Source: Planctomycetota bacterium (lineage in GTDB: Bacteria; Planctomycetota; PLA2; JAEUHO01). Taken from it: a stretch of 32,909 nt of DNA. The stretch covers positions 1 to 32,909 of the forward strand of contig JASJDY010000063.1 of assembly GCA_030065025.1 (NCBI GenBank), read 5' to 3'. The position numbers were made by a program, and so were the translations under genes. This document shows, one piece after another, positions 940 to 23,915 of the stretch (position 1 is the first letter of the stretch; every line of letters starts with the position of its first letter). The notes beneath the pieces were generated by a model that was given only the letters and a program-made list of their open reading frames with translations, was not told the origin of the DNA and made no database searches.

Positions 940-1914
940 CTAGCCGAAGCGCCCCGTCACGTAGTCTTCCGTCTCCTTGAGATGCGGATTGACGAACAGG
1001 TCCTGCGTGGGACCGAACTCGACCATGCGGCCGAGGTACATGAAGGCGACGTAGTCGCTGGCGCGCTGCGCCTGCTGCATGTTGTGCGTCACGATCAGGA
1101 TGGAGTAGTGACCCTTGAGCTCCTGGATGAGGTCCTCGATGCGCCCCGTGGCGATCGGGTCCAGCGCGGAGCAAGGCTCGTCGAGGAGCAGGATCTCGGG
1201 CTCGCCGGCGATGGCGCGACCGATGCACAGGCGCTGCTGCTGACCACCGGACAGGCGTAGCGCGTTGTCGTCGAGGCGGTCCTTGACCTCTTCCCACAGG
1301 CCGGCACCGCGCAGGCTCTTCTCGACGACCTCGTCCAGGATCGCCTTGTCCCGCAGGCCATCGATGCGCAGCGGATAGACGATGTTCTCGTAGATGCTCA
1401 TCGGGAACGGGTTCGGCTTCTGGAACACCATGCCGATGCGCTTGCGGAGCTCGATGACGTCGACCCCCGCCCCGTAGATGTCATCGCCACTGAGGCGCAT
1501 GTTGCCCTTCGTCGTGACGGTGGGGATCAGGTCGTTCATGCGGTTCACGCAGCGGAGCAGCGTGGACTTGCCGCAGCCCGACGGCCCGATCAACGCCGTG
1601 ACCTCGCCCTTGGGTACGCCCATGCTGTTGTCGTACAGCGCCTGCGCCGAGCCGTACCACAGGTTGAAGTTCTCGATCTCGATGACGCAGTCCTTGTCGA
1701 CCATCCCGTCGTGGACGTCGGTGTCGAAGGCGACCCCGCGCGAGACCGACTCGAACACGCCACCGATGCGAGCACCGTGCTGCCCCTCGGGCATCGGTGC
1801 AAGCGGTCGCTCGCTCGCGCTCTCCGGCACACTCCGCGCGGTGTCATCCGCAGGGTTGTTCTGGACAGGGATCTGAGCGTTCTCTTCGCGTTGCATGTCG
1901 TTGTCCTCGACCAT
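940..1914 (-). CDS. pstB: Phosphate ABC transporter ATP-binding protein PstB
   Basis: This is the cytoplasmic ATPase that drives phosphate import through PstC/PstA. Walker [10 protein letters not shown] is at about residues 110-118, the signature LSGGQQQR and Walker B ILLLDEP follow, and the H-loop is in [16 protein letters not shown] and the NRMNDL segment are characteristic of PstB. The ORF opens at 1956, but ATG 1914 is preferred: it follows the pstA stop by four bases and has GAGGG upstream. ATG 1896 is also possible. With the 1914 start the protein is 324 residues, and about 75 of these form a polar low-complexity N-terminal extension that a typical 250-290 residue PstB lacks. It is the last pst gene here, and no phoU follows. 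Confidence 0.96.
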
Positions 1915-1918
1915 TCGA

Positions 1919-3655
1919 CTATCCGCCCTCGATGTACGCACGGCGGAGGCGTGCACGAACCCAGATCGCCACGACGTTGAGGACGATGACGATCCCGATC
2001 AGAAGCAGTGTGGTGGTGAACACCAGGGGCTCCGCCGCCTTCGCGTTGGGACTCTGGAACCCGACGTCGTAGATGTGGAAGCCCAGGTGCATGAAGCCCC
2101 GCGTCGGATGGACGAAGGGGAACTCGCCATCGACGGGGAGATCCGGCGCCATCTTCGCGGCGCCGACGAGCATGATCGGCGCCACCTCGCCGGCTCCTCG
2201 TGCGATGGCCAGGATCATGCCGGTCATCACGCCTGGCATGGCGCGCGGCAACACGATCCGCCGGATCGTCTGCCACTTGCTGGCCCCACACGCGTATGAA
2301 CCCTCGCGCATGGAGTTGGGCACGGCGGCGAGCGCCTCTTCCGTGGCCACGATGACGACAGGCAGCGTGAGCAGGGCGAGCGTCAGCGACGCCCACAGGA
2401 TCGCGCCCTTCCCGAACGTCGGGTTGGGCAGCTGCTCGGCGAAGAAGATCTCGTCGATGCCCGCACCGATCGTGTAGCAGAAGAAGCCCAGGCCGAAGAC
2501 GCCGAACACGATGCTGGGCACGCCCGCCAGGTTGTTGACGGCGATGCGCACGAGGCTCACGAGTGCGCCCTGCTTGGCGTACTCGCGCAGGTAGAGCGCG
2601 CCGAGCACGCCGAACGGTACGACGAGGATCGTCATGATCATCGTCAGCACGATCGTGCCGAGGATGGCGGGCCAGACGCCGCCCTCGGTGTTCGCCTCAC
2701 GCGGGTTGGCCGTGAGGTACTCCCACCAGCGCGAGATGTAGATCCCCACCTTGTCGAAGAAGTCGAGACGGTTGGCGGGGTAGGCGCGAATGATGTCGAC
2801 GAGTCGCACCGGCTCCTCGGAGCCGTACGACGTCTTCATGAGGAGCGCGTACTTGCCGGCCTCCGCGCGCAGCTCGTCGACCTGGGCACGGAGCTTCGTG
2901 CGCTCGGGATTCTGCGCGCTCTCGAAGGCGGCCCGAGCCTCGAGCGCCTTCACGTGCTCGGGCGAGTTCGTGCCATGCTCGAGCTCGACACTTCGGGCGC
3001 GAAGGCGCTCCTTCTCGAGCGCGGCGTCCAGGTCTCCGATCGCCTCCTTCTCGATCTCGGAGGCCTGATCCCACATGTCGAGCGCCTTGTCGTGGTTCTG
3101 CTCGAACAGCTCCCACGCCGTGGCGGGATCCTCGGCTGTGCGTTCCTCGCCCGTGAGGAAGGCGATCGGCTCGCCGTAGAAGCGCCCCCACTCGCTGCGC
3201 TCGATCGTGACAGCCCACTCGGGGAACGTCTCGGACTTGACCTGGAAGTCGCTGACCTCCGTGAAGCCCTGGGTCCGCCGCTCGGGGCTGTTGTTCCCCG
3301 TGCGCCACAGGTAACGGGTGCTGCGGCCGCGGTTGTCCTCGACCATCTTCTTCGCGGCCGCCCGATCGGCCTCGGGCAGCGCGTCGAAGACGAAGGCCTC
3401 GGGCTTGTACTCCTCCGTGCGCGTGAGCTCGCCCATCAGCGCGCGACCGTCGACCAGATTGATGACCTTGAGCTTCTGCGGCCAGAAGGTCGTACCTCCA
3501 CGCACGAGCACGATGCCGAGCAAGCCCAGGATCATGGCGATGCTCACAACGAGCGCAGCGCCCGTCATCCACACCATGGGCTCACCGCGCGCGAACAGCG
3601 ACGACCGTCGCTTGATCAAGCGGCGCTTCATCTTGGTTCCCGGTGCGTCGGCCAT
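1919..3655 (-). CDS. pstA: Phosphate ABC transporter permease PstA, long variant
   Basis: This is one of the two membrane subunits forming the phosphate channel. The protein has 578 residues, against about 290 in the classic form. One membrane segment at about 27-50 is followed by an extracytoplasmic insert of roughly 280 residues. The insert includes a charged helical, coiled-coil-like stretch ([12 protein letters not shown] through EKERLRAR). The canonical permease domain follows, with the EAA loop [20 protein letters not shown] near residues 438-460. The layout matches the long PstA type that carries a DUF3333-like N-terminal region in some Proteobacteria, although I cannot confirm homology of the insert. 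The ORF opens with GTG then ATG. The ATG at 3655 is chosen because AGGAG lies six bases upstream and overlaps the pstC stop codon, which suggests translational coupling. Confidence 0.93.
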
Positions 3656-3664
3656 CACCTACTC

Positions 3665-6283
3665 CTAGAGATCCGCAAACCGCTTGCGGAAGTGGCGTCG
3701 AACCAGCTCGGCAATCGTGTTGATGACGAAGGTCATGGCGAAGAGCACCAGACCGCACATGAAGAGCACGCGGTAGTGCGTGCTGCCGACCACCGCTTCA
3801 GGCAGCTCCGTTGCGATGTTGGCGGAGAGCGTGCGGAACCCGTTGAACATGTTCCAGTCCATGATTCCGGTGTTGCCCGCCGCCATGAGCACGATCATCG
3901 TCTCGCCGACTGCGCGGCCGAGACCCACCATCATGGCGCCGAACAGGCCGCTCATCGCGGCCGGCACGACGATGCGGATGCCGGTCTGCCAGGGCGTCGC
4001 GCCACAGCCGAGCGAACCCTCACGCAGCTGCTGGGGGACGCTGCTGAGCGCATCCTCGGCCAGGGTGTAGATGATCGGGACGATCGCGAACCCCATGACG
4101 AAGCCGACGATCAAGGCGTTGCGCTTCTGGTACTGGCCGACGATCGACTCGCGCGGATCGAGGCCGCCGCCGAGCAGGGAGCCGAGCGCCCAGGCGATGA
4201 ACACGCCGCCCGCAATCACGATGGCGAAGCGGACGACATCGGCAAGTGCGCACTGCGCGCGGCTCCAGCCGGCCGAAGCCGAACGCAGCCACGGCCCCGC
4301 GAACCGCGCGAAGGCGATGGCGGCCCCGACCATGCAGAGGGGAATGAGCAGGAAGGTCCAGCCTCCCGCGTTGGTGCCTTCGCCGCGGTTGAGCCACCCG
4401 TCGATGTCGCCGTTGAAGCACAGACTCTCGATGCCGGGCGCGATCCACTGTGCCATCAAGACGGCCAGGGGCAGCGTGAGGCAGATCGCCAGGAAGCGCG
4501 GCATGCCCGACCAGCGAATGGCGTATTGGCCGGGCAGGAACTGCCACAGCCTGGCTCCCAGGATGACCGTCACCGGCAGGGTGACGAACACGCACAGCAC
4601 GGTGATCAGCACGCTGTCCACGAAGGGCGCCAGCACGATGGCCGCCAGGAAGCCGAGCACCACGCTAGGCAGGCTGGCCATCATCTCGATGACCGACTTC
4701 AGGGGCGCCCGCCAGCGCGGCGTGAGGAACTCGCTGGTGAAGAGTGCTGCCAGCAGCGCGATCGGCACGGCGATCAGCATCGAATAGAGCGTGGCCTTCA
4801 GCGTGCCGAACACGAGGACCATCACGCCGAGCTTCGGCTCGAAGTCGTCGGAGCCACCCTCGGACTGCCAGGTGTAGGCGGGCCCCTCTTGTCCCTCGTA
4901 CCAAACACGCCCGAAGAGCGACGAGAGCGTCGCCGCGGGGTGACCGGGATCGACGAGCCAGCGCTGCAGGGAGCCGCCGAACCAGGCGACGAGGCCGTCC
5001 TCCTTCGGCGTGAGGGCGAGGCCTTCGATGCGCACCTGGCTGTCGGCGCTCACCTCGAGGAGCAGCTGGTCGGTGGTGACGTGGAACAGGCGGACGGTGC
5101 CGTCGTCGAAGCCCACGGCCAGCTGCCTACTGCGGAGGGACGTCGAGAAGGCAGTCGCGCGTGCGCCCACCCCGTCGTCTCCGGTCAGCCGGTGGCCCTG
5201 CGCCATCTGGATGCCGTCCCTCGCGTAGGCACCCGCGGGACGCGTGGGGAACCAGGCGGTCAGGGCGCCTCGTTCGTCGGCGGCGATGAGCGTCGTCTTG
5301 CCGATGAGGAACTCGATGCGGTCGAGCGTGCGTCCCTCGGGGACGACCTGGACGGTCTCGACGACCTCGAGTTCCCCGCCGGCGGCCATCACGGTCTCGC
5401 GCGCGTCGAAGCGCATCCCGTAACCGTCCGCCCAGAGCAGCATGAGCGAGTTGCCCTGGCCGAAGAGCCTGAGGAACGCCGGCTCGCCGCGGTCGGCCTT
5501 CGGGCGGTAGACGATGGGCTTGTCGAAGGGATCCTCGACCCAGGCGTCCATCATCGGGTTGAAGCGCCGGAAGTACTGCCGGATACCGAGCTTGCCGTCG
5601 GCGGTCAGGTAGCCGAAGGCGCGACCGTTCGACGGCAGCGAGTAGTCGATCAGGCGAATCGCGCTCTGGGCGATCGCATCCGGAGCGGACATCTCGACGG
5701 CGAGCCGATCGAAGCGCCACTGGTCTTCCGGGGTCTTCGACAGGACGCCGTTCTGGAAACGGACGGAGCCGCCGACGCGCAGCTTGAGCGCCTCCTCGGT
5801 CAGGTTCTCGTCGTTGCGCTCGAGGAACGACTCCTCGAACTGGATGGTCCCTGTGCGGACCGTGCCGTCCTCGAAGCCGAAGGCGCAGTCGGGCCCATCC
5901 GGCGAGAAGGACCAGCAGGTCGGCCGCTTGCCGTCGAAGAGGTCGAGGTCGTCGACCAAGGCTCCGTCCTGGAGGCGACGAACGCGCAGACGCCCATCCG
6001 CGTGGAGGCTCCAGCCCAGGAGCTGCGCGTCGTCGACGCCCGTGCGAATGATCTCGGCGGCCTCGCCGCGAGTCTTCAGGTCGAGCGTCGAGGCGGGCTC
6101 GACGTCCGCGTCGGAGAAGAGCGGGACGACGACCCACAGGAGGAAGACGAAGATCAGCAGAACGGCGAGGATCGTGCCGATGCCGCCGGCCGTGATGGCG
6201 GTACGCGCGACCGTCTCGGCCGTCTTGACGCTGCGCGGGGTGGTGCGTTCGCGATTGAGACCAGTGAACGTCTTGTCAGCCAT
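3665..6283 (-). CDS. pstC: Phosphate ABC transporter permease PstC, long variant with beta-propeller-like insert
   Basis: This is the second membrane subunit of the Pst importer. The protein has 872 residues, against about 320 in the classic form. A first membrane segment at about 30-52 is followed by some 400 extracytoplasmic residues. These contain WD40/propeller-like strands such as WSFSPDG, FGFEDGTVRTG and VGFDDGTVRLFHVTT. The C-terminal permease part begins at about 490 and has several membrane helices and an EAA loop, EDALSSVPQQLREGSLGCGA, near residue 748. GRAVGETMIVLMAAGN is typical of PstC. The N-terminal domain could contact PstS or sense something in the periplasm, but that is inference. 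The start at ATG 6283 has only a weak ribosome site. It is separated from pstS by 154 bp carrying a strong hairpin. Confidence 0.94.
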   Translation of the reverse strand: MADKTFTGLNRERTTPRSVKTAETVARTAITAGGIGTILAVLLIFVFLLWVVVPLFSDADVEPASTLDLKTRGEAAEIIRTGVDDAQLLGWSLHADGRLRVRRLQDGALVDDLDLFDGKRPTCWSFSPDGPDCAFGFEDGTVRTGTIQFEESFLERNDENLTEEALKLRVGGSVRFQNGVLSKTPEDQWRFDRLAVEMSAPDAIAQSAIRLIDYSLPSNGRAFGYLTADGKLGIRQYFRRFNPMMDAWVEDPFDKPIVYRPKADRGEPAFLRLFGQGNSLMLLWADGYGMRFDARETVMAAGGELEVVETVQVVPEGRTLDRIEFLIGKTTLIAADERGALTAWFPTRPAGAYARDGIQMAQGHRLTGDDGVGARATAFSTSLRSRQLAVGFDDGTVRLFHVTTDQLLLEVSADSQVRIEGLALTPKEDGLVAWFGGSLQRWLVDPGHPAATLSSLFGRVWYEGQEGPAYTWQSEGGSDDFEPKLGVMVLVFGTLKATLYSMLIAVPIALLAALFTSEFLTPRWRAPLKSVIEMMASLPSVVLGFLAAIVLAPFVDSVLITVLCVFVTLPVTVILGARLWQFLPGQYAIRWSGMPRFLAICLTLPLAVLMAQWIAPGIESLCFNGDIDGWLNRGEGTNAGGWTFLLIPLCMVGAAIAFARFAGPWLRSASAGWSRAQCALADVVRFAIVIAGGVFIAWALGSLLGGGLDPRESIVGQYQKRNALIVGFVMGFAIVPIIYTLAEDALSSVPQQLREGSLGCGATPWQTGIRIVVPAAMSGLFGAMMVGLGRAVGETMIVLMAAGNTGIMDWNMFNGFRTLSANIATELPEAVVGSTHYRVLFMCGLVLFAMTFVINTIAELVRRHFRKRFADL

Positions 6284-6326
6284 GGAACCCAGCGCAGGCT
6301 AGCGAAGGGTCACAAGGGGGAGAGAG

Positions 6327-6354
6327 GGTGCCGGCGGCCGAAGCCGCCGACACC
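6327..6354 (-). terminator. UUCG-loop hairpin between pstS and pstC
   Basis: Read on the minus strand, GGTG-t-CGGCGGC, loop TTCG, GCCGCCG-g-CACC forms a stem of 11 pairs with one mismatch, closed by the very stable C(UUCG)G tetraloop. No T-tract follows (CTCTCTCCCC), so it is not a classic intrinsic terminator. Between a binding-protein gene and its permease genes, such a hairpin usually protects the upstream mRNA or attenuates read-through. That would give more PstS than PstC/A/B. Confidence 0.7.
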
Positions 6355-6437
6355 GAGGGAAGACAGTCCGCAGTGTGACCGGATGCTGCAGACTGCAACT
6401 GTGGAAGCCCATGAGGGGCCATGGACACGCTTCGCGC

Positions 6438-7421
6438 CTAGTTGCTGGAGAGCGTGATACCGACCTTGGCGAGCTCGGCGCGCGCGATCGAGTTCGGGAC
6501 GGGGAAGTAGCCGTCCTTGGCCACGATCTTCTGGCCCTGCTTGCTGAAGATCAGCTTGATGAACTCGCGGCGAAGCGGCTCGAGCTGGCTGCCCGGCTTG
6601 TAGTTGACCGCGCACCACAGGAAGCGCGCGAGCGGGTAGCGGCCGCTGTAGGCGTTCGCGGGCACGGCGGCGATGAACTGGCCCGGACGGACGCCGAGGG
6701 GCACGGTGGCGACGTCGGCCGTCTTGTAGCCGATGCCGCTGTAGCCGATACCGCCCAGGTCGTTCGAGACGGACGTCACGACGGCCGAGCTGCCCGGCTG
6801 CTCCTTGACGGTGTCCTTGTAGTCGCCCTTGAAGAGCGCGTGCTTCTTGAAGTAGCCGTACGTGCCGGAAGCGGAGTTACGGCCGTAGATCGTGATCGGA
6901 CGGCTGGCCCAGGCGCCGGTGAGACCGACGTCACCCCAGGTCTTGATGTCCTTGGCGAAGCCGCCCTTGCGCGTCTTCGAGAAGATCGCGTCGACCTGCT
7001 GCAGCGTCAGGCCCGTCTTGGCGATCGGGTTGTCCTTGTGGACGTAGACGGCGAGCATGTCGATCGACGTGCGGAGCTGGACGGCCTTGTAGCCGAACTT
7101 GTCGACGAACTTGTCCATCTCCTTGTCCTTCATCTTGCGGCTCATGGGGCCGAAGGTGGAGGACCCGGCGATCAGCGCGGGCGGCGCGGTCGAGGAGCCC
7201 TTGCCCTCGATCTCGATGCCGACGCTGGGGTAGTACTTCTTGAACAGCTCGGCCCAGAACGTCATCAGGTTGTTCATGGTGTCCGAGCCGACGCTCTTGA
7301 TGTTGCCCGACACGCCGCTGCTCGGCTTGTACTCGGGCAGGTTCTTGTCGAGGTCCGCAGCGGCGAAACCGCCGGTCACCAGGAGCACGATGGCGCTGAT
7401 CGCGACCACTCTCTTGAGCAT
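6438..7421 (-). CDS. pstS: Periplasmic phosphate-binding protein PstS
   Basis: This protein captures phosphate in the periplasm and delivers it to PstC/PstA. It has 327 residues. A Sec signal peptide (MLKRVVAISAIVLLVTGGFAAA) without a lipobox cysteine indicates a soluble periplasmic protein. Family marks are the opening strand IKSVGSDTMNNL, the helix-start segment KGSSTAPPALIAGSSTFGPMSR and the ligand loop YGRNSASGTYGYF, followed by GGIGYSGIGYK. AGAGGA lies eight bases before ATG 7421. It is the first gene of the pst operon and sits behind an AT-rich promoter region. The downstream hairpin at 6327 probably sets its excess over the membrane subunits. Confidence 0.95.
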   Translation of the reverse strand: MLKRVVAISAIVLLVTGGFAAADLDKNLPEYKPSSGVSGNIKSVGSDTMNNLMTFWAELFKKYYPSVGIEIEGKGSSTAPPALIAGSSTFGPMSRKMKDKEMDKFVDKFGYKAVQLRTSIDMLAVYVHKDNPIAKTGLTLQQVDAIFSKTRKGGFAKDIKTWGDVGLTGAWASRPITIYGRNSASGTYGYFKKHALFKGDYKDTVKEQPGSSAVVTSVSNDLGGIGYSGIGYKTADVATVPLGVRPGQFIAAVPANAYSGRYPLARFLWCAVNYKPGSQLEPLRREFIKLIFSKQGQKIVAKDGYFPVPNSIARAELAKVGITLSSN

Positions 7422-7572: not shown

Positions 7573-8484
7573 CTACTCGACGGCGCGCTGTACGCGCGTT
7601 CCCGCCTCGCCCCGCAGGATGCGCGCTGCGTCGGCGAGAGCGCCGATGCCGGCGATGCCACCGCTGGAGCGCACGAAGCGGCAGGCGGCCTCGACCTTCG
7701 GCCCCATGCTGCCGCGCTCGAGGCGCATGTCCTCGAGCTGCTCCGGCGTACACGTGGTGATCGGAGGTGTGTCGCCGGGCGGCCATGAGGGATACACGCC
7801 CGGCACGTCGGTCAGCAGCAGGAGGGCGTGCGCGTTCAGGCGCGCGGCCAGCAGCGCGGCGGATCGGTCCTTGTCGATGACGGCCTCGACTCCGCGCACC
7901 GCCCTTGCGGGCGTGACCACCACCGGGATACCTCCGCCGCCGGCGCACACCACGATGCGGTCGGCCTGGAGCAGCACGCGGATCGTGTCGAGCTCGCGGA
8001 TGCGGCGCGGCTCGGGCGACGGGACGATGCGGCGATAGCCCGCGTCGAACTCGGCGAACGACCAGCCGCGTTCCCCCTCGAGCTCGCCGGCCCGGTCGGC
8101 GTCGTAGAAGGGACCGATCGGCTTGGTCGGATCATCGAACGCGGGATCGTTCGCGTCGACCTCCACCTGCGTGAGCAGTGTGACCACCTGGCGATCGGGC
8201 AGGGCGTTGGACAGCTCCTGATCGATCAGGTAGCCGACCATGCCCTCGCTCTCCGCACCGAGCACGTCGAGCGGCGGCTCCGGCGCGTCCTCGTAGGCGG
8301 CGGCCTGCAGCGCGAGCAGTCCGACCTGCGGACCGTTGCCATGCGTGACGACGATCTGGTGCTCGTCGGCGACCTCCGCGATCGCGCTGGCCGCTTCCCG
8401 CAGGTTGGCGCGCTGGAGCTCCGTGTCCAGCGGCTGACCGCGACGCAGGAGGGCGTTGCCGCCCAGGGCGATGACGACGCGCAA
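7573..8484 (-). CDS. arcC: Carbamate kinase
   Basis: This enzyme interconverts ADP plus carbamoyl phosphate with ATP plus carbamate, normally in the ATP-forming direction during citrulline or ureide breakdown. It has 303 residues, close to the usual 310. Visible marks are the N-terminal phosphate-binding ALGGNALL, THGNGPQVG, CAGGGGIPV, the DKD pair in VIDKDRSAALLA, LLTDVPGVY and the C-terminal ERGSMGPKVEAA. The start codon is TTG at 8484, chosen because AGGAGA lies eight bases upstream and the gap to the preceding carbamoyltransferase stop is only 15 bases. It is the last gene of a three-gene operon. No arginine deiminase gene is present, so the source of citrulline or carbamoyl phosphate is not shown. 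Confidence 0.95.
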   Translation of the reverse strand: MRVVIALGGNALLRRGQPLDTELQRANLREAASAIAEVADEHQIVVTHGNGPQVGLLALQAAAYEDAPEPPLDVLGAESEGMVGYLIDQELSNALPDRQVVTLLTQVEVDANDPAFDDPTKPIGPFYDADRAGELEGERGWSFAEFDAGYRRIVPSPEPRRIRELDTIRVLLQADRIVVCAGGGGIPVVVTPARAVRGVEAVIDKDRSAALLAARLNAHALLLLTDVPGVYPSWPPGDTPPITTCTPEQLEDMRLERGSMGPKVEAACRFVRSSGGIAGIGALADAARILRGEAGTRVQRAVE

Positions 8485-8499
8485 CGCGTGATCTCCTAC

Positions 8500-9444
8500 C
8501 TAGCTGGGATCGTAGCCCTCGAGGCGCCCGGCGAGCACGGCGTAGAGGATGCCTACGGCCGCGTGCAGGCGGTTCTCGGCCTGATCGAACACGACGGAGC
8601 GCGGACCGTCCACGACCTCCGCGGTGACCTCCTCGCCCCGGTGGTCCGGCAGGCAGTGCATGAAGATCGCCTCCGGGCGGGTGAGGTCCATGAGCGCGTC
8701 GTTGACCTGGTACGGCTCCAGGTCGTGGAGCCGCTTGGCGCGCTCCTCGTCCGGGTCCCCCATCGACACCCACGTGTCCGTGTAGATGGCCTGGACGCCT
8801 TCGACGGCCGCCTTCGCATCGTCCGTGAAGATCAGCTTGGCGCCGCTGAGCGCGGCGCGTGCCTTCGCGACCTCGACGACCTCGGGCTCCACCTCGTAGC
8901 CGGGCGGCGTCGCGACGCGCATCTCCATGCCGACGATGGCCGCAGCCTCGAGGAGGCTGTGCGCCACGTTGTTGCCGTCGCCGACGTAGGCGATCACGAC
9001 GTCGCTGAGATCGCCGAACCGCTGCAGTAGCGTCTGCAGGTCGGCGAGGCTCTGACACGGATGATGGCCGTCCGTCAGCGCGTTGACGACGGGCACGCTC
9101 GCGGTCTTCGCGAAGCGACGCACCTCGTCGTCCGAGTACGTGCGGATGGTGATGGCGCGCGCGTAGCGGCTCATCACCTCGGCCGTGTCCTCGATCGTCT
9201 CGCCGCGGCCGAGCTGCAGGTCGTTGGGACCGACCATGATCGGCACGCCGCCGAGACGCGCGACGGCCGTCTCCAGGGAGAGCCGCGTTCGCGTCGAGGG
9301 CTTGTTGAAGTACAGCACCGCCGTGTCCCCTTCGAGGATGTGGCGGAAGCCGTACGGGTCATCCTTGGAGCGCTGGGCGTACTCGAGCACGCGCTCGATG
9401 TCCGCGAGGTCCAGGTCGGCAGTGCGGAGCAGGTCCTTCAGCAC
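8500..9444 (-). CDS. argF: Ornithine carbamoyltransferase
   Basis: This enzyme transfers a carbamoyl group between carbamoyl phosphate and ornithine to make citrulline, or runs in reverse when coupled to carbamate kinase. It has 314 residues, the normal length. The carbamoyl-phosphate loop STRTR is at 50-54, HPCQ at 128-131, GDGNNVA near 155-161, the ornithine-type D-x-W-x-SMG at 223-229 and HCLP at 263-266. The SMG loop favours ornithine over aspartate. Ureide carbamoyltransferases of the YgeW type are a less likely alternative. The start is GTG 9444, with GGAGG next to the stop codon of the upstream gene (13-bp gap). Sitting beside arcC suggests a catabolic rather than biosynthetic role. 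Confidence 0.92.
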   Translation of the reverse strand: MLKDLLRTADLDLADIERVLEYAQRSKDDPYGFRHILEGDTAVLYFNKPSTRTRLSLETAVARLGGVPIMVGPNDLQLGRGETIEDTAEVMSRYARAITIRTYSDDEVRRFAKTASVPVVNALTDGHHPCQSLADLQTLLQRFGDLSDVVIAYVGDGNNVAHSLLEAAAIVGMEMRVATPPGYEVEPEVVEVAKARAALSGAKLIFTDDAKAAVEGVQAIYTDTWVSMGDPDEERAKRLHDLEPYQVNDALMDLTRPEAIFMHCLPDHRGEEVTAEVVDGPRSVVFDQAENRLHAAVGILYAVLAGRLEGYDPS

Positions 9445-9457
9445 GGTCCGGTCCTCC

Positions 9458-10792
9458 TCAGCTCTGCACCGTGGGAAGGAAGCGCTCGCGCACGACGCCG
9501 GCCAGGCCCGGCTCCTCCGTCTCGGCGTAGTCGTAGGTCACGCGGACGGCCGGCTGCGGGATGTCGACGATGCGACCCAGGTCGATCGGCGTGCCGATGA
9601 CCACCGCGTCGCAGGGCACGGCGGCGATCGTCTCCTGCAGATCGGCGACCTCCTCGGCGCCGTAGCCCAGCGCCGGCAGGACGTCGTGGAGGTGCGGGTA
9701 GTGCTCGAAGGCGTCGGCGATCTGGCGCACGGCGTACGGCCGCGGATCCACGATCTCGGCCGCCTCGGCGCGCTTCGCGGCCAGGAGGCCGGCGCCGTAG
9801 CCCATGCCGCCATGGGTGACGGTCGGGCCGTCCTCCACCACGAGGACCTTCTTGCCCTTCACGGCCGCCTCGTCGGCGAGTCCGATGGGCAGGCGTCCCA
9901 GCAGGAAGGCCGCGTCGGGGTTGTGCTCGCGGGCGGCGCCGCGAAGCGCCTCGATCGCCTCGGGCGTGGCCTCGTCGACCTTCGTGACGAGCAGCACGTC
10001 CGCGTGGCGCAGGTTCCAGCGCGAGGGGAACCAGCTCGTCTCGTCGCCGGCACGCAGCGGATCGAGCAACGTGATCATGAGGTCGGGCTTCACGAAGGGC
10101 GTGTCGTTGTTGCCGCCGTCCCAGAGGATGACGTCGGCCTCCTTCTCCGCTTCCTCGAGGATGCGGCCGTAGTCCACGCCGGCGAACAGGAGGTCGCCCG
10201 CCTCGATGTGCGGCTCGTACTCCTCCATCTCCTCGATCGTGCACTCGTGCGTCTCGAGGTCTTCGAGCTTCTCGAACCGTTGCACGATCTGCTTGTCGAG
10301 GTTGCCGTACGGCATGGGATGCCGCAGCACGGCGATGCGTAGGCCGGCCTCGCGCAGCTGATGCGTGACGTAGCGCGCGACGGGGCTCTTGCCGCAGCCC
10401 GTCCGCACCGCGCAGATGGCGAGCACGGGCTTGCTGCTCTTCAGCAAGCAGCGCTCGGCGTCGAACGTCGTGAAGGTCGCGCCGGTCTTGCGCACGCGCT
10501 CTTCCTGTTCGGCGAGGAAGTCCATCGAGACGTCGCTGTAGGCGAAGACGACGTGCTCGACCTTCTCCTTCTCGATCGTCGCCTCGAGGTCGTCCTCGGG
10601 CACGATCGGAATCCCATCCGGATACTGCGGACCGGACAGCGCGGGCGGGTAGCGCCGATCGTCGATGTTCGGGATCTGCGCCGCGGTGAACGCGACGACA
10701 ACGGTGTCCGCGTCCTCCCGGTAGCACGTGTTGAACACGTGGAAATCGCGCCCTCCGGCGCCCATGATCAGCACACGCTTCGCGTGAGACAT
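9458..10792 (-). CDS. Cyclic 2,3-diphosphoglycerate synthetase-like P-loop protein
   Basis: The protein has 444 residues and matches the family annotated as cyclic 2,3-diphosphoglycerate synthetase or predicted GTPase. Members have a Rossmann-like N-terminus (RVLIMGAGGRDFHVFN) and a P-loop at 131-136 (TGCGKS). They also have PMPYGNL, VILWDGGNNDTPF and a THGGMGYGAG loop. In Methanothermus fervidus the enzyme makes the thermolyte cyclic 2,3-diphosphoglycerate from 2,3-diphosphoglycerate. Many bacterial homologues are uncharacterised, so substrate is inferred by family only. The ORF extends to 10942, but ATG 10792 is chosen: GGGAGGA lies seven bases upstream and conserved sequence starts immediately. 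It is the first gene of the operon with the carbamoyltransferase and carbamate kinase, and is divergent from the GT-C gene. Confidence 0.85.
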   Translation of the reverse strand: MSHAKRVLIMGAGGRDFHVFNTCYREDADTVVVAFTAAQIPNIDDRRYPPALSGPQYPDGIPIVPEDDLEATIEKEKVEHVVFAYSDVSMDFLAEQEERVRKTGATFTTFDAERCLLKSSKPVLAICAVRTGCGKSPVARYVTHQLREAGLRIAVLRHPMPYGNLDKQIVQRFEKLEDLETHECTIEEMEEYEPHIEAGDLLFAGVDYGRILEEAEKEADVILWDGGNNDTPFVKPDLMITLLDPLRAGDETSWFPSRWNLRHADVLLVTKVDEATPEAIEALRGAAREHNPDAAFLLGRLPIGLADEAAVKGKKVLVVEDGPTVTHGGMGYGAGLLAAKRAEAAEIVDPRPYAVRQIADAFEHYPHLHDVLPALGYGAEEVADLQETIAAVPCDAVVIGTPIDLGRIVDIPQPAVRVTYDYAETEEPGLAGVVRERFLPTVQS

Positions 10793-10892
10793 CGGGTCCT
10801 CCCTTGGGTTGAGGCCGTAGGATCCCGCCGGAATCGTGGGCCACCTAGAATGTCCGGAGCGCGATATCGGAGGCGGTAAGGAGGGCCTGGCG

Positions 10893-13786: not shown

Positions 13787-15442
13787 TCACTTCGCGCGGC
13801 GGGCCTTGAGGTCGTTCAGGCGCAGCTGGCCCTCCTCGGCACGCAGGCTGAAGTTGAGCACGCCGATCACCTGGCGTCCGGCGAGCACCGTCGCGGTACC
13901 GCGGTTCACGGAGAGCACCACGCGGTCCCAGGTCGCCCCCGCGAGGCCGCCGGCCAGCGCCTGGACGTCGCCGTCGCGGCGGGCGATGGCCGCGCCGACA
14001 CTGCGGTGGGCGAGCTGCGGGAAGTACGGCAGCACGGCTGCGGCATCGGCCGTGGGGATCCCCCGCAGGCCGTAGCGCTTCGTGACGTCGAATAGCGCCT
14101 CGAACCACACGCGGAAGAGCGCGCCGTCACCGGCCGCGAAGGGGTCGACGGCGAACGGCACGAGCGTGCCGGCCGCACCGCCGGACTCGGGCGTCCACTT
14201 GCCAAAGATCAACCGCATGCGGTCCCCGACGACCAGCAGCGTGACGTCGGCGCGCCCCACGAGCCGTCCCTTGTTGAAGAGCAGCGTGTTGAAGAGCACG
14301 GTCGACGGCACCACGCTCGTGGCATCCGGGAAGGCCTGGCGCACGGGCGTCGTGTAGGTGGGCAGCACCTCCTTGCGACGGAGGCCGATGGCGAAGCGCT
14401 CCTTCAGGTTGGTGGTGCCGCGGATGCCGGCCAGCAGGTCGGCGCCGAGCTTCTGCATCCACGCGCGTGCACGCCCGTCGGCGCTACGCCACACCTGCCC
14501 GGGAACGCCGGACGGCTGCGCCGCGTAGTTCGGCTCCGGCCGGGGCCCGGCCTTGGGCGCCGGGCCGGCGCCGTCGAGGGCGGGCAGCTTCTCGCTCACG
14601 AAGTCGACCCAGCCGGGCTCGGACGCGCCGAGCAGGCCCCACGGGCGGTCGCGCGGCATGACGGGTTGAGGCTGTAGCGACTGCGGCAGGCGCGAGGCGA
14701 CGCCGCCCTGGATCTCCAGCACCGTCACGGGGGTCGCCGTCAGCCGCGGCACGTGCATGCCGCTGCGCAGCTTCACGCCGGACACGCCGGCGCGGTAGAG
14801 CAGGTCGAGCGTGGTCAGCGCGTACTGCAGCGGAGCGTTCGTCGCGATCCAGACACTGGCGACGACCTTCTGCACCCCGAACGTCGCGCGCTTCTCGATC
14901 GCGCGACGCACGGCGGCATACGCATGCCCGGGATCGGAGGAGGCCTTCCGCGTGCCGGCCGCCACGGTGTTGATGCGCATCTCGAGCAGCCCCGCCTTGG
15001 GGCCGGGCGTGCCGGTGCGACCCGGCGGCAGGAACAGCGGGAACCCCATCACCCGACCCGTCGCCTGGCTGCGCACGCGCAACCCAATGCGGTAGATCCC
15101 CGCGGCGGCCGCGGCCTCGCGAACGCGCTTCGCGTGGATCCAGGCGTGCTGGGCGGACGCGCTGATCCAGACCCCGTGCGGGCTGGGACGCGCGGTGCCG
15201 GCGCGCTGCTTGAGCACCGCGATGAGGCCCTGGAAGTCGACGGGCTGCGCGACGCCGCTGACGTGGAACCAGCTGACCTCCGTGCGCTTGCCGACGGTGA
15301 CCACGCTGACGTTCTGGGCCTGGATCGGAGCACAGGTGCCTACGACAGGCAGGTCCCGATCGGCAACGGGCGGAACCCGCTCGTCCGCCCAGGCAGGTGC
15401 GGCGGCGAGGACGAGCAGGAGCAAGGCGGTGGTGCGCAACAT
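13787..15442 (-). CDS. Secreted protein with ExbD/TolR-like segments
   Basis: The protein has 551 residues with a clear Sec signal peptide (MLRTTALLLLVLAAAPAWA), starting at ATG 15442 with GGGAGG six bases upstream. Two internal segments resemble the periplasmic ExbD/TolR fold. One is at about 95-125 (AWIHAKRVREAAAAAGIYRIGLRVR). The other is near 195-225 (VWIATNAPLQYALTTLDLLYRAGVSGVKLR), where ExbD has a strand, a helix and the 'RAG(V/I)' turn. No membrane helix or TonB-motor partner gene is nearby, so a motor role is not supported. The C-terminal half is unassigned. It is divergent from the M1 aminopeptidase with a 113-bp shared promoter region. The function is unknown. Confidence 0.7.
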   Translation of the reverse strand: MLRTTALLLLVLAAAPAWADERVPPVADRDLPVVGTCAPIQAQNVSVVTVGKRTEVSWFHVSGVAQPVDFQGLIAVLKQRAGTARPSPHGVWISASAQHAWIHAKRVREAAAAAGIYRIGLRVRSQATGRVMGFPLFLPPGRTGTPGPKAGLLEMRINTVAAGTRKASSDPGHAYAAVRRAIEKRATFGVQKVVASVWIATNAPLQYALTTLDLLYRAGVSGVKLRSGMHVPRLTATPVTVLEIQGGVASRLPQSLQPQPVMPRDRPWGLLGASEPGWVDFVSEKLPALDGAGPAPKAGPRPEPNYAAQPSGVPGQVWRSADGRARAWMQKLGADLLAGIRGTTNLKERFAIGLRRKEVLPTYTTPVRQAFPDATSVVPSTVLFNTLLFNKGRLVGRADVTLLVVGDRMRLIFGKWTPESGGAAGTLVPFAVDPFAAGDGALFRVWFEALFDVTKRYGLRGIPTADAAAVLPYFPQLAHRSVGAAIARRDGDVQALAGGLAGATWDRVVLSVNRGTATVLAGRQVIGVLNFSLRAEEGQLRLNDLKARRAK

Positions 15443-15555
15443 GGAGCCTCCCAGACCTCGTAGTGTCCGCTGCAGGGGCTTCAGGGCCAGCTTCGGGCGT
15501 CCTGCGGCATCTCCGGCGTGTCATCGCGAGCCTGCTATGGCCTAGGATCTGGCCC

Positions 15556-17994
15556 ATGCATCGCACGCTCATCACGGTCACGGCCATCCTGCTTGTGACC
15601 TTGCCCGCCGCCGCGGCTCCGACGGACGGTCCCCTCGACGCCACCACGCGCGACTTCGACCAGCTGCACATGCGCATCATCGTGCGCCCCGACATCGCGA
15701 AGGGCACGGTCGAAGGCAAGGTCACGCTGCGGTTCGCGTCGCTCGCAGACGGGCTCTCCGTGCTGCGGCTCCACTGCCAGGACACGAAGGTCAAGGGTGT
15801 GAAGGACGCCAGCGGACGCACGCTGAAGCACCGGCACGCGCGCAACATCCTGGCGATCGACCTACCGGGGCCCCTGGCAATGGGTGCCCAGTCCGAGGTC
15901 ACGATCGACTACAAGAGCACGCCACGGCATGGGTTGCTCTTCCACCGGCCGACCGAGCGGGATCCCGACACCCCGCTGTTCATGTACAGCCAGGGCCAGG
16001 GCACCAACAATCGGCGCTGGATCCCCTGCTACGACGAGCCCGACGATCGCCTGAGCTGGGACCTCACGGTCCACGTGCCGCCCGGCATGGACTCCGTCTC
16101 GAACGGCGAGCGCGTGCAGAGCGTGACGATCCCCAACGTCGAGGGCTCCATGCACCACTGGCGCTTCGCCGACCGCGCGCCGACGTACCTGATCTCACTG
16201 ATCGTCGGGGAACTCCAGACGATCACGAAGGAACACAAGGGCGTCCAGCTCGACTACAGCGCCGTGCCGGGCAACAAGGAGAAGCTCGAGGCGTCGCTAC
16301 GCGAGACGGGCAACATGCTCGACTTCTTCGGGGAGTACCTGCAGGCCCCGTATCCGTGGAAGCGCTACGCGCAGACCTACGTCTGGGACTTCCTCTACGG
16401 CGGCATGGAGAACGTCACCGCGACGACGCTCAACATGCGCGCGCTGCACACCAACGCGATTCGCCCCAACTACAGCGCCGACGGCCTCGTCGCACACGAG
16501 CTGGCGCACATGTGGTTCGGCGACCTGATCACGTGCCGCACGTGGCAGCACATCTGGCTCAACGAGGGCTTCGCGACGTACTTCACCGACCTCTTCTTCG
16601 AGTGGCGCTACGGCCCCGAGGAGTTCCTGCTCAGGCGACGCCGGCAGAACCACGGCTACATGAAGGGCACGCCCAAGGCGAGCGAGCTCAAGCTCGAGCG
16701 CGACCCGCGCGGCGACATTCCGCTGGAGCTCTTCGGGGGCAAGCAGTACAGCCGCGGCGCGGCGATCCTGCACAACCTGCGCCGCCACCTTGGCGATGAG
16801 GTCTTCCGCGAGGCGATCCGCGCCTACGTGAAGCGACATCGCGACAGCGCCGTCACGTCCGAGGATCTGCTGACCGTCTGCGAGGAGGTCGCTGGCGAGG
16901 ACCTGCAGTGGTTCTGGGATCAGTGGGTCTACGGGCTCGGCTATCCGAAGCTCGACGTGAGCGTCGTGGACTACGAGCGGCAGATCGTCGTCCGCCAGAC
17001 GCAGAAGCAGGCAGGCGGCCAGGGTCTGTTCCGCCTGCGCGTGCCCATCCGCTTCGGCAAGGACGGCGTCGTCCGCACGGTCACCATCTACCGGGAGCGC
17101 CACACCTTCCCGCTGCTCGAGACGGAGGATCCTCTCCAGCACCTCCGCTTCGGCGTCGGCGGCGACCTGCTCATGCAGGTGAATCAGGTGCAGTCCTTCG
17201 CGCGGTGGGGTGAGCAGGTGCTGACGGATCCCGACGTGACCGGACGTGTCGATGCCGCCGAGGCGCTCGAGGAGTTCGGCAGCGTCTCGGTCCCGGCGTT
17301 GCGCAAGGCCTTGGAGGAGGACGGCTCGTACGCCGTCCGCAAGGTCGCGGCGGAGGTGCTGGGACGCATCGACGATGCTGCGGCGACCGAGGCCCTGCTG
17401 GCGGGCGTGAAGGACCCGGATCCGCGCGCGCGCGAGGCGGTCTTCGATGCGCTCGGCTCGAAGAACCGTCGTGCGGCCGGCGCGGTCGTGCTCGCTGCGG
17501 TGTCGAGCGAGCGCCATCCGCGCGTTCGCGCCGCGGCTGCGAGGTCCGTCGGCAAGCTCAAGGTCACGGGCGCCTATGACGCACTCGTCGCACTGCTTGC
17601 CGTCGACTCGGATCAGGACGCCGTGCGCACGGGAGCCGTCGACGGCCTCAAGAGCCTGGGCGACGTGCGCGCGGTCGAGCACGTGCTGCCGTTCCTCGAC
17701 TACGTGTGGGGCAAGGGCGGCAACCACAGACTGCGGCAGGCGGCACTGGGTTGCGTGACGCACCTGAAGCCCGACGACCGCACGCTTCACGCGGTCGTGG
17801 TCGAGCTGCTGGAGGATCCCTTCCACCGGATGCGTAGCTGGGCGGCGGACGCGTGTGGCACCTACAAGATCACGTCGGCCATCCCGCGGCTACGCCACCT
17901 GCGCGACAACGACTGGCGTGGCGGCGTGAAGGGCGCGGCGCGTCAGGCGCTCAAGCGGCTCGGGTGGCAGGAGCCGAAGAAGAAGGCGGGGTAG
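15556..17994 (+). CDS. M1 family zinc aminopeptidase with C-terminal HEAT repeats
   Basis: This is an exported metallopeptidase that removes N-terminal residues from peptides. The chosen start at ATG 15556 gives 812 residues with a signal peptide (MHRTLITVTAILLVTLPAAAA). The ORF start at 15397 would put about 53 non-family residues in front. The exopeptidase motif GGMEN is at 282-286. The zinc site HELAH is at 314-318, with the third ligand Glu337 in WLNEGFATYF, exactly HExxH-x18-E. From about residue 555 the chain becomes HEAT-like helices (VRKVAAEVLGRIDD, then AREAVFDALGS, VRAAAARSVGKL), as in other M1 enzymes with armadillo-type tails. The ribosome site is weak. The TAG stop is part of a GTAG palindrome. 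Confidence 0.93.
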   Translation: MHRTLITVTAILLVTLPAAAAPTDGPLDATTRDFDQLHMRIIVRPDIAKGTVEGKVTLRFASLADGLSVLRLHCQDTKVKGVKDASGRTLKHRHARNILAIDLPGPLAMGAQSEVTIDYKSTPRHGLLFHRPTERDPDTPLFMYSQGQGTNNRRWIPCYDEPDDRLSWDLTVHVPPGMDSVSNGERVQSVTIPNVEGSMHHWRFADRAPTYLISLIVGELQTITKEHKGVQLDYSAVPGNKEKLEASLRETGNMLDFFGEYLQAPYPWKRYAQTYVWDFLYGGMENVTATTLNMRALHTNAIRPNYSADGLVAHELAHMWFGDLITCRTWQHIWLNEGFATYFTDLFFEWRYGPEEFLLRRRRQNHGYMKGTPKASELKLERDPRGDIPLELFGGKQYSRGAAILHNLRRHLGDEVFREAIRAYVKRHRDSAVTSEDLLTVCEEVAGEDLQWFWDQWVYGLGYPKLDVSVVDYERQIVVRQTQKQAGGQGLFRLRVPIRFGKDGVVRTVTIYRERHTFPLLETEDPLQHLRFGVGGDLLMQVNQVQSFARWGEQVLTDPDVTGRVDAAEALEEFGSVSVPALRKALEEDGSYAVRKVAAEVLGRIDDAAATEALLAGVKDPDPRAREAVFDALGSKNRRAAGAVVLAAVSSERHPRVRAAAARSVGKLKVTGAYDALVALLAVDSDQDAVRTGAVDGLKSLGDVRAVEHVLPFLDYVWGKGGNHRLRQAALGCVTHLKPDDRTLHAVVVELLEDPFHRMRSWAADACGTYKITSAIPRLRHLRDNDWRGGVKGAARQALKRLGWQEPKKKAG

Positions 17995-22436: not shown

Positions 22437-23915
22437 ATGCCGGAAGTTCGCTTTGCTCGCACCGCCGCGGCGGCCCTCCGTGGGGCCGGATCGGCGGTCT
22501 TCTTCGCCCCCGAGTCCCGTCTTCGCAAGGGCTGGCTCCGCAAGGCAGCCGACGGCGCCGACTGGGCGCGCCTGCTCGCGGGAGTCGCCAAGCAGGCCGC
22601 GGCGGGGCCGCGCGGCAAGCTGGTCAGCGCCCAGAACCCGGACGCGGGCCCGGCCGCGCTCGCGCTCGGCGTGCTGCCGGACAGGGTCTCGCGCCACAAC
22701 TGTCCGGCGCGCTCGACCATGGCGGATGACCTCATGCGCCGCGTCGAGGTCCGCCCGGGGACGACCGCCGTCGTGCTGTGTGTCGAGAAGCCGGCGCATG
22801 CGCTGCCCCTGGCGCGGGCGATCGGACGGGCACTGCCCGAGTACACGCGAGCGACGGGCAACAGCGGCAAGGCGACGATCCGCATCGCCTGCGTGCGTCC
22901 GGATGGCTCGGCGCACGCGCTGTCTCGGCTGGAGCAGGAGATCGTGCGCTGCGGTCGCTGGGCTGCGCGGCTCTATGACATGCCCACGGCCGAGATGAGC
23001 ACGACGCAGTTCGTCAGCGAGACCCGCAAGGCCGCGCGCGGTGTCGCGCATCTCAGCGTGTCGGTCATCTCCGGCGCGAAGGTGCTCGAGAAGAAGATGG
23101 GCGGACTGCACGCCGTCGGCCGTACGGCCATGCATCCGCCGAAGCTGCTACTCCTGCGCTACAAGCCGCCCGGCGCCAAGCGCATGGGCGCGCTCGTGGG
23201 CAAGGGCATCGTCTACGACACCGGCGGGCTCTCGCTCAAGAACAGCGCCGGCATGTACGGCATGAAGGGCGACATGGGCGGCGCAGCCGGCGTCGTCGGC
23301 GCCGCACTGGCGCTGGCCAAGGCCAAGCACAAGGACGCGTTCATCTGCGCCGCCGCGCTGGCCGAGAACGCGATCGGTCCGGACGCGTACCGTCCCGGCG
23401 ACATCCTCGGGATGCACTCCGGGAAGACCGTCGAGATCAACAACACGGACGCCGAGGGCAGGCTGGTCGTCGCGGACGGGCTTTCCTATGTGGCGCGCAC
23501 GTACAAGCCGGACGTCGTGATCGACATGGCCACGCTCACCGGCGCGCAGCTCGTCGCCACGGGCCACCGCCACGCCGCCGTCGTCAGCAACCGCGCGGGC
23601 CTGGAGGCCCTCGCTGTCGAGGCGGGGCGCGCCGGCGGAGACCTGACGCATCCGCTGCCCTTCGCACCGGAGATGTACCAGGCCGAGTTCGCTTCCAAGG
23701 TCGCGGACATGCGCAACTCCGTCGCGGACCGCATGAACGCGCAGACCTCCTGCGCGGCGCAGTTCATCTATAGTCACATCGAGGACCTCGACCTGCCGTG
23801 GCTGCACGTGGACATGGCCGGTCCCTCGGGCACATCGGAGCGCGGCACCGGCTACGGCGTGGCGCTCGGCGCGATGCTGCTGCACACCATGACGGAGAAG
23901 GCCCTCAAGGCCTGA
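22437..23915 (+). CDS. pepA: Leucyl (cytosol) aminopeptidase, M17 family
   Basis: This is a dinuclear-metal aminopeptidase that releases N-terminal amino acids from peptides in the cytoplasm. It has 492 residues. The catalytic domain has VGKGIVYDTGGLSLK (metal ligands Lys256 and Asp261, catalytic Lys268 by family position), MKGDMGGAA (Asp279) and the signature NTDAEGRL at 336-343 (Asp338, Glu340, catalytic Arg342). The N-terminal macro-like domain is divergent, as usual. The start at ATG 22437 has AGGAGG upstream. The 54-bp gap to mgtE leaves a shared transcript possible. Confidence 0.95.
   Translation: MPEVRFARTAAAALRGAGSAVFFAPESRLRKGWLRKAADGADWARLLAGVAKQAAAGPRGKLVSAQNPDAGPAALALGVLPDRVSRHNCPARSTMADDLMRRVEVRPGTTAVVLCVEKPAHALPLARAIGRALPEYTRATGNSGKATIRIACVRPDGSAHALSRLEQEIVRCGRWAARLYDMPTAEMSTTQFVSETRKAARGVAHLSVSVISGAKVLEKKMGGLHAVGRTAMHPPKLLLLRYKPPGAKRMGALVGKGIVYDTGGLSLKNSAGMYGMKGDMGGAAGVVGAALALAKAKHKDAFICAAALAENAIGPDAYRPGDILGMHSGKTVEINNTDAEGRLVVADGLSYVARTYKPDVVIDMATLTGAQLVATGHRHAAVVSNRAGLEALAVEAGRAGGDLTHPLPFAPEMYQAEFASKVADMRNSVADRMNAQTSCAAQFIYSHIEDLDLPWLHVDMAGPSGTSERGTGYGVALGAMLLHTMTEKALKA

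Follow-up and report, generated by a model that had tools for sequence, protein, structure and literature searches.

A planctomycete operon that probably encodes an arginine synthetase pathway for energy-conserving arginine catabolism

The three-gene operon at positions 7573-10792 of the window, which is the whole stretch of 32,909 nucleotides analysed here, is quite probably of the type arcE-arcB-arcC and would conserve energy from the breakdown of arginine; its P-loop protein would, judging from its gene context, act as arginine synthetase. In the proposed scheme, this protein (ArcE) would convert arginine, ADP and Pi into citrulline, NH3 and ATP. The ornithine carbamoyltransferase (OTC), assigned by profile, would then turn citrulline and Pi into ornithine and carbamoyl phosphate, and the carbamate kinase, likewise assigned by profile, would use carbamoyl phosphate and ADP for the formation of ATP, NH3 and CO2, with a net yield of two ATP per arginine. 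In the ArcE step, a phosphoryl group would pass reversibly between ATP and the ureido oxygen of citrulline, and ammonia would be the second reactant; CTP synthetase is a chemical analogue for a transfer of this kind. A preliminary description of this DNA had pointed out that the deiminase that would make citrulline is absent. Arginine deiminase indeed gives no match in the 89%-complete host genome with the profiles PF02274 and TIGR01078, but the gap in the pathway is likely filled by the first gene. As this gene is the likely deiminase substitute, the pathway would be complete, the deiminase being replaced and not missing.

The pathway has most likely been described already in its essence. According to PMC13260591, the archaeon Thermococcus kodakarensis has its arginine deiminase replaced by the arginine synthetase ArcE (TK2200), which couples deimination to ATP synthesis in the reaction Arg + ADP + Pi <-> citrulline + ATP + NH3; ArcE, OTC and carbamate kinase together make up the 'arginine synthetase pathway' described for Thermococcus (Michimori et al. 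2024 PNAS, cited therein). The same source reports that homologs of ArcE occur widely among archaea and bacteria, that carbamoyl phosphate is supplied by ArcE with OTC in Thermococcales without carbamoyl-phosphate synthetase (CPS), and that in T. kodakarensis deletion of arcC has little effect on this supply, for which arcE and arcB are needed. The operon in the window would most likely be a well-supported bacterial instance of this archaeal pathway from 2024, with an annotation that is missing or misleading. In both systems OTC and carbamate kinase are present and arginine deiminase is absent, and both are complementary to ArcA among genomes with arcC; in addition, many carriers of the window family are without CPS or ArgG, and there are links to amino-acid catabolism. 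They differ in that the T. kodakarensis locus numbers are far apart (TK2200, TK0871, TK2158) whereas the window genes form one operon, and in that the organism of the window has CarB and ArgG. The likeness to ArcE is one of gene context and distribution; since the window family shares the published distribution and gene partnership of ArcE, its P-loop gene is probably arcE. With the ADI (arcABC) pathway the operon shares the OTC and carbamate kinase steps, but it differs from it in that neither the operon nor the genome contains arcA.

The three open reading frames lie on the minus strand within the same operon, and the earlier picture of a single unit, with gaps of 13-15 bp and Shine-Dalgarno sequences near the stop codons, was confirmed. 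The arcE-like gene (9458-10792, ATG start) encodes the probable arginine synthetase, a P-loop protein of 444 aa, as judged from its sequence relatives, invariant columns, AlphaFold model and linkage with arcC, and is preceded by the Shine-Dalgarno sequence GGGAGG (10798-10803, minus strand). After a gap of 13 bp follows arcB (8500-9444, GTG start), which encodes the OTC of 314 aa and whose Shine-Dalgarno sequence, GAGGAGGA (9452-9459, minus strand), overlaps the stop codon of the P-loop gene. After a further 15 bp comes arcC (7573-8484, TTG start) for the carbamate kinase of 303 aa, with AGGAG at 8493-8497 of the minus strand; these signals were read directly in the sequence. Both enzyme identities proposed in the preliminary description hold, as the OTC scores 372 bits with TIGR00658 (cut-off 281) and the carbamate kinase 436 bits with NF009008 (cut-off 361). 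The OTC has the canonical SMG ornithine loop and the HCLP motif. A scan for consensus promoters found none, and the gene upstream of the operon, which is divergent, encodes a GT87-like membrane protein. Beyond the other end of the operon, at a distance of 151 bp, Pst-type phosphate transport genes for an ABC ATPase, two permeases and a binding protein occupy 940-7421 of the minus strand; phosphate would be consumed by ArcE and OTC alike. Genes for an M1-type peptidase with HEAT repeats (15397-17994) and an M17 leucyl aminopeptidase (22437-23915) are also found nearby, which fits peptide use.

The host genome (3.9 Mb) has argG, carB, the aspartate carbamoyltransferase gene pyrB and two N-acetylornithine carbamoyltransferases, one of them between argB and an argD-like gene. 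Because of these separate biosynthetic genes, the OTC of the window looks spare for catabolism, and the operon most likely represents a catabolic module that exists in addition to them. This module is patchy, since the P-loop gene and arcC are both absent from four genomes of the same genus.

The family of the P-loop protein is large. A scan with one genome per GTDB species gave at least 587 relatives across many bacterial phyla and Thermoplasmata, and the best 80 of them, with 51-61% identity to the window protein, come from Planctomycetota, Zixibacteria, Krumholzibacteriota, Nitrospirota, Elusimicrobia, Acidobacteriota, Aminicenantes, Ignavibacteria, Thermoplasmata and others. Haloarchaeal plasmids also have a member with 47-49% identity, and in two out of three arcC is divergently adjacent. 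On these plasmids (L005, L006, L007), the arcE-arcC genes are found among several universal stress protein genes. When 84 family loci were compared, leaving the frequent short antisense reading frames opposite conserved genes out of the neighbourhood clusters, arcC was within 4 kb in 35, a carbamoyltransferase in 14, and the family gene, arcC and a carbamoyltransferase together in 12. Five further trios, beyond these 12, occur in the phylum of the window. The gene order is arcC-arcE-OTC in two genomes of the window's own family, and arcE-arcC-OTC or, in one case, arcE-aminotransferase-arcC-OTC elsewhere in the phylum. Proximity to arcC and carbamoyltransferases is thus conserved across many phyla and in haloarchaea, which supports the earlier suggestion that the family acts in carbamoyl-phosphate or energy metabolism and not in thermolyte synthesis. 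Other recurrent neighbours, namely ornithine aminotransferase, P5C dehydrogenase, the 2-oxoacid:acceptor oxidoreductase KorAB and succinyl-CoA ligase (SucCD), are the steps that would extend the route from arginine through ornithine and glutamate to succinate; an NDK-like gene, named by its N-terminal sequence only, recurs as well.

Several carbamoyltransferases are found at these loci. Some family operons hold OTC, arcC and aspartate carbamoyltransferase, and in three Planctomycetota loci (L011/L115, L012, L118) the arcE-like gene adjoins an N-acetylornithine carbamoyltransferase. YgeW was considered for the second carbamoyltransferase of some loci and rejected, as the enzyme is an aspartate or N-acetylornithine carbamoyltransferase. 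The purine-degradation clusters with YgeW, SsnA and allantoinase also combine a carbamate kinase with a carbamoyltransferase, but the latter is a different one and no P-loop partner stands beside it; arcC in clusters of this type explains some of the arcC genomes without the P-loop family. In the OTC of one related trio (L125:5040-5981), SWMSYRVP takes the place of the canonical SMG ornithine loop, and its substrate may differ. Three Acidobacteria loci (L036, L074, L081) have a gene for a DUF1015 protein next to the arcE-like one. Six Elusimicrobia (L024, L028, L050, L053, L080, L083) have the arcE-like gene between GAPDH and PGK, are without CarB and have, elsewhere in the genome, a carbamate kinase with an insertion, placed near YgeW/YgeY-like genes where inspected.

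The association with arcC is also seen for whole genomes, far beyond chance. Of 41 carrier genomes, 39 have arcC, against 2 of 14 controls. The window's phylum was sampled independently with 244 genomes, of which 46 have both genes, 11 the family only, six arcC only and 181 neither. This corresponds to arcC in 46/57 carriers and 6/187 non-carriers (odds ratio 126, P 2e-32, the P value being inflated by the relatedness of the genomes), and without the richest family, f39, the odds ratio is still 84 (P 5e-23). Full-length arcA, in turn, is found in 3/74 genomes with both the family and arcC and in 2/6 genomes with arcC but not the family, and in one of these two it lies next to arcC. In two more of the six, the neighbour of arcC is SsnA or allantoinase. 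Some of these results speak against the ArcE reading: few cases underlie the arcA contrast (P 0.04), the 11 of 57 phylum carriers are without arcC, and in Elusimicrobia the gene is placed with GAPDH and PGK while the aberrant arcC lies elsewhere.

The P-loop protein has no NCBIfam match, and its only Pfam match, to cobW, is below threshold. In the PDB, only cyclic 2,3-diphosphoglycerate (cDPG) synthetases are convincingly related to it by sequence (E 1e-5 with the single sequence, E 1.5e-10 with a profile), and these stand well above all other matches of the profile search. The best PDB match by fold is the Methanothermus fervidus enzyme (8ORK/8ORU), which also leads the profile search together with 9SXB; it has the same two-domain P-loop architecture, with about 15% identity over the structural alignment. 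Foldseek, run on the AlphaFold model (pLDDT 94, pTM 0.92), also ranked cDPG synthetase (cDPGS) best, then LpxK, with dethiobiotin synthetase lower, and together these searches place the protein among P-loop phosphoryl-transfer enzymes. One could therefore think of a bacterial cDPGS that makes a protective solute or a phosphate store and has incidental operon partners, the more so as PGAP names the 48%-identical haloarchaeal relative cyclic 2,3-diphosphoglycerate synthase in RefSeq and the host has two sub-threshold matches to 2-phosphoglycerate kinase (C134:8875-9753, C76:5927-6706). We regard this as very unlikely, since 2-phosphoglycerate kinase gave no match in 40 of the 41 other carriers and the genomic linkage is with arcC and OTC. 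Moreover, the P-loop residues K145 and R146, which bind 2,3-DPG in M. fervidus cDPGS (PMC10690619), align with T131 and G132, invariant in 56 family members. The protein is only a remote relative of the cDPG-making enzymes among which the preliminary description had placed it, and the two key basic residues for substrate binding are absent from it. An invariant acidic stretch at 187-193, some 52-58 residues past the P-loop lysine, would by its spacing sit near the position of the Mg-binding D208 of cDPGS; residues 187-195 read EEMEEYEPH, a motif that is invariant in the family. On the other side, it counts against the ArcE reading that T. kodakarensis has a separate gene, TK1039, different from TK2200, that is annotated as cDPGS (PMC5663688). 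A literature search found no papers on COG2403, nor on cDPGS together with carbamate kinase. HypB-type accessory proteins also appear among the profile relatives, and with neighbours as varied as GAPDH/PGK, SucCD, NDK and KorAB, they would suit a P-loop NTPase of regulatory or chaperone type with control over OTC and carbamate kinase or other enzymes of substrate-level phosphorylation (PGK, SucCD). The very high conservation of the 56-member alignment, with about 90 invariant columns and many invariant polar residues outside the P-loop, fits an enzyme better, and the complementarity with arcA fits catalytic replacement, which makes such a controlling role very unlikely.

The loss of carB in many carriers brings in another explanation, namely that the P-loop protein activates bicarbonate and ammonia to carbamate with ATP and that carbamate kinase works in reverse, giving a two-part CPS where CarAB is missing. 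A match comparable to CarB is absent from 18 of the 41 carriers (not counting G011, with carB in pieces) and from none of the 14 controls, a proportion that is indicative, the carriers being mostly draft genomes of unstated completeness chosen partly by neighbourhood. All 18 have arcC, aberrant in six, and the operons that unite OTC, arcC and aspartate carbamoyltransferase would agree with this explanation too. However, carB is present in the host and in 237 of the 244 phylum genomes, and for this reason a CPS substitute as the general role was rejected. In T. kodakarensis, furthermore, carbamoyl-phosphate supply was little affected by arcC deletion and depended on arcE and arcB (PMC13260591), so the loss of carB can also be explained by supply from arginine; we consider a two-part CPS very unlikely. 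The 18 carriers all have carbamoyltransferases and 15 of them are also without argG; this lack of both carB and argG, seen in many carriers outside the window's phylum, is the genotype of Thermococcales.

Returning to the arginine synthetase reading, it is possible, although we say so tentatively, that in several bacterial lineages the enzyme has replaced canonical arginine and pyrimidine steps. It would make arginine from citrulline and ammonia where ArgG is missing, as in the genome without argG (G206) whose locus L115 has the adjoining N-acetylornithine carbamoyltransferase, and with arcB it would provide carbamoyl phosphate from arginine in the carriers where CarB is missing. Supply via arcE and arcB is shown so far in Thermococcales only, and it is not a general role in the window's phylum, where carB is nearly universal. 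If true, this would account for the source of carbamoyl phosphate or arginine in bacteria that have no CarAB or ArgG. Renaming the protein to ArcE, if correct, would complete the pathway and predict the two ATP per arginine. As neither Pfam nor NCBIfam has a name for the protein and RefSeq calls a relative cDPG synthase, we think that in many uncultured phyla the arginine energy metabolism is likely mistaken for a broken pathway with no deiminase; on the most likely reading of our comparisons, the pathway would occur across dozens of bacterial groups, usually wrongly named or unnamed. The bacterial operon, with its linked genes, is well suited to a direct enzymatic test. A 52%-identical ArcE-like protein is also encoded in an unverified 20-kb record that is labelled 'bacteriophage' and comes from human faeces (L131, MT835996.1), which is possibly bacterial DNA.
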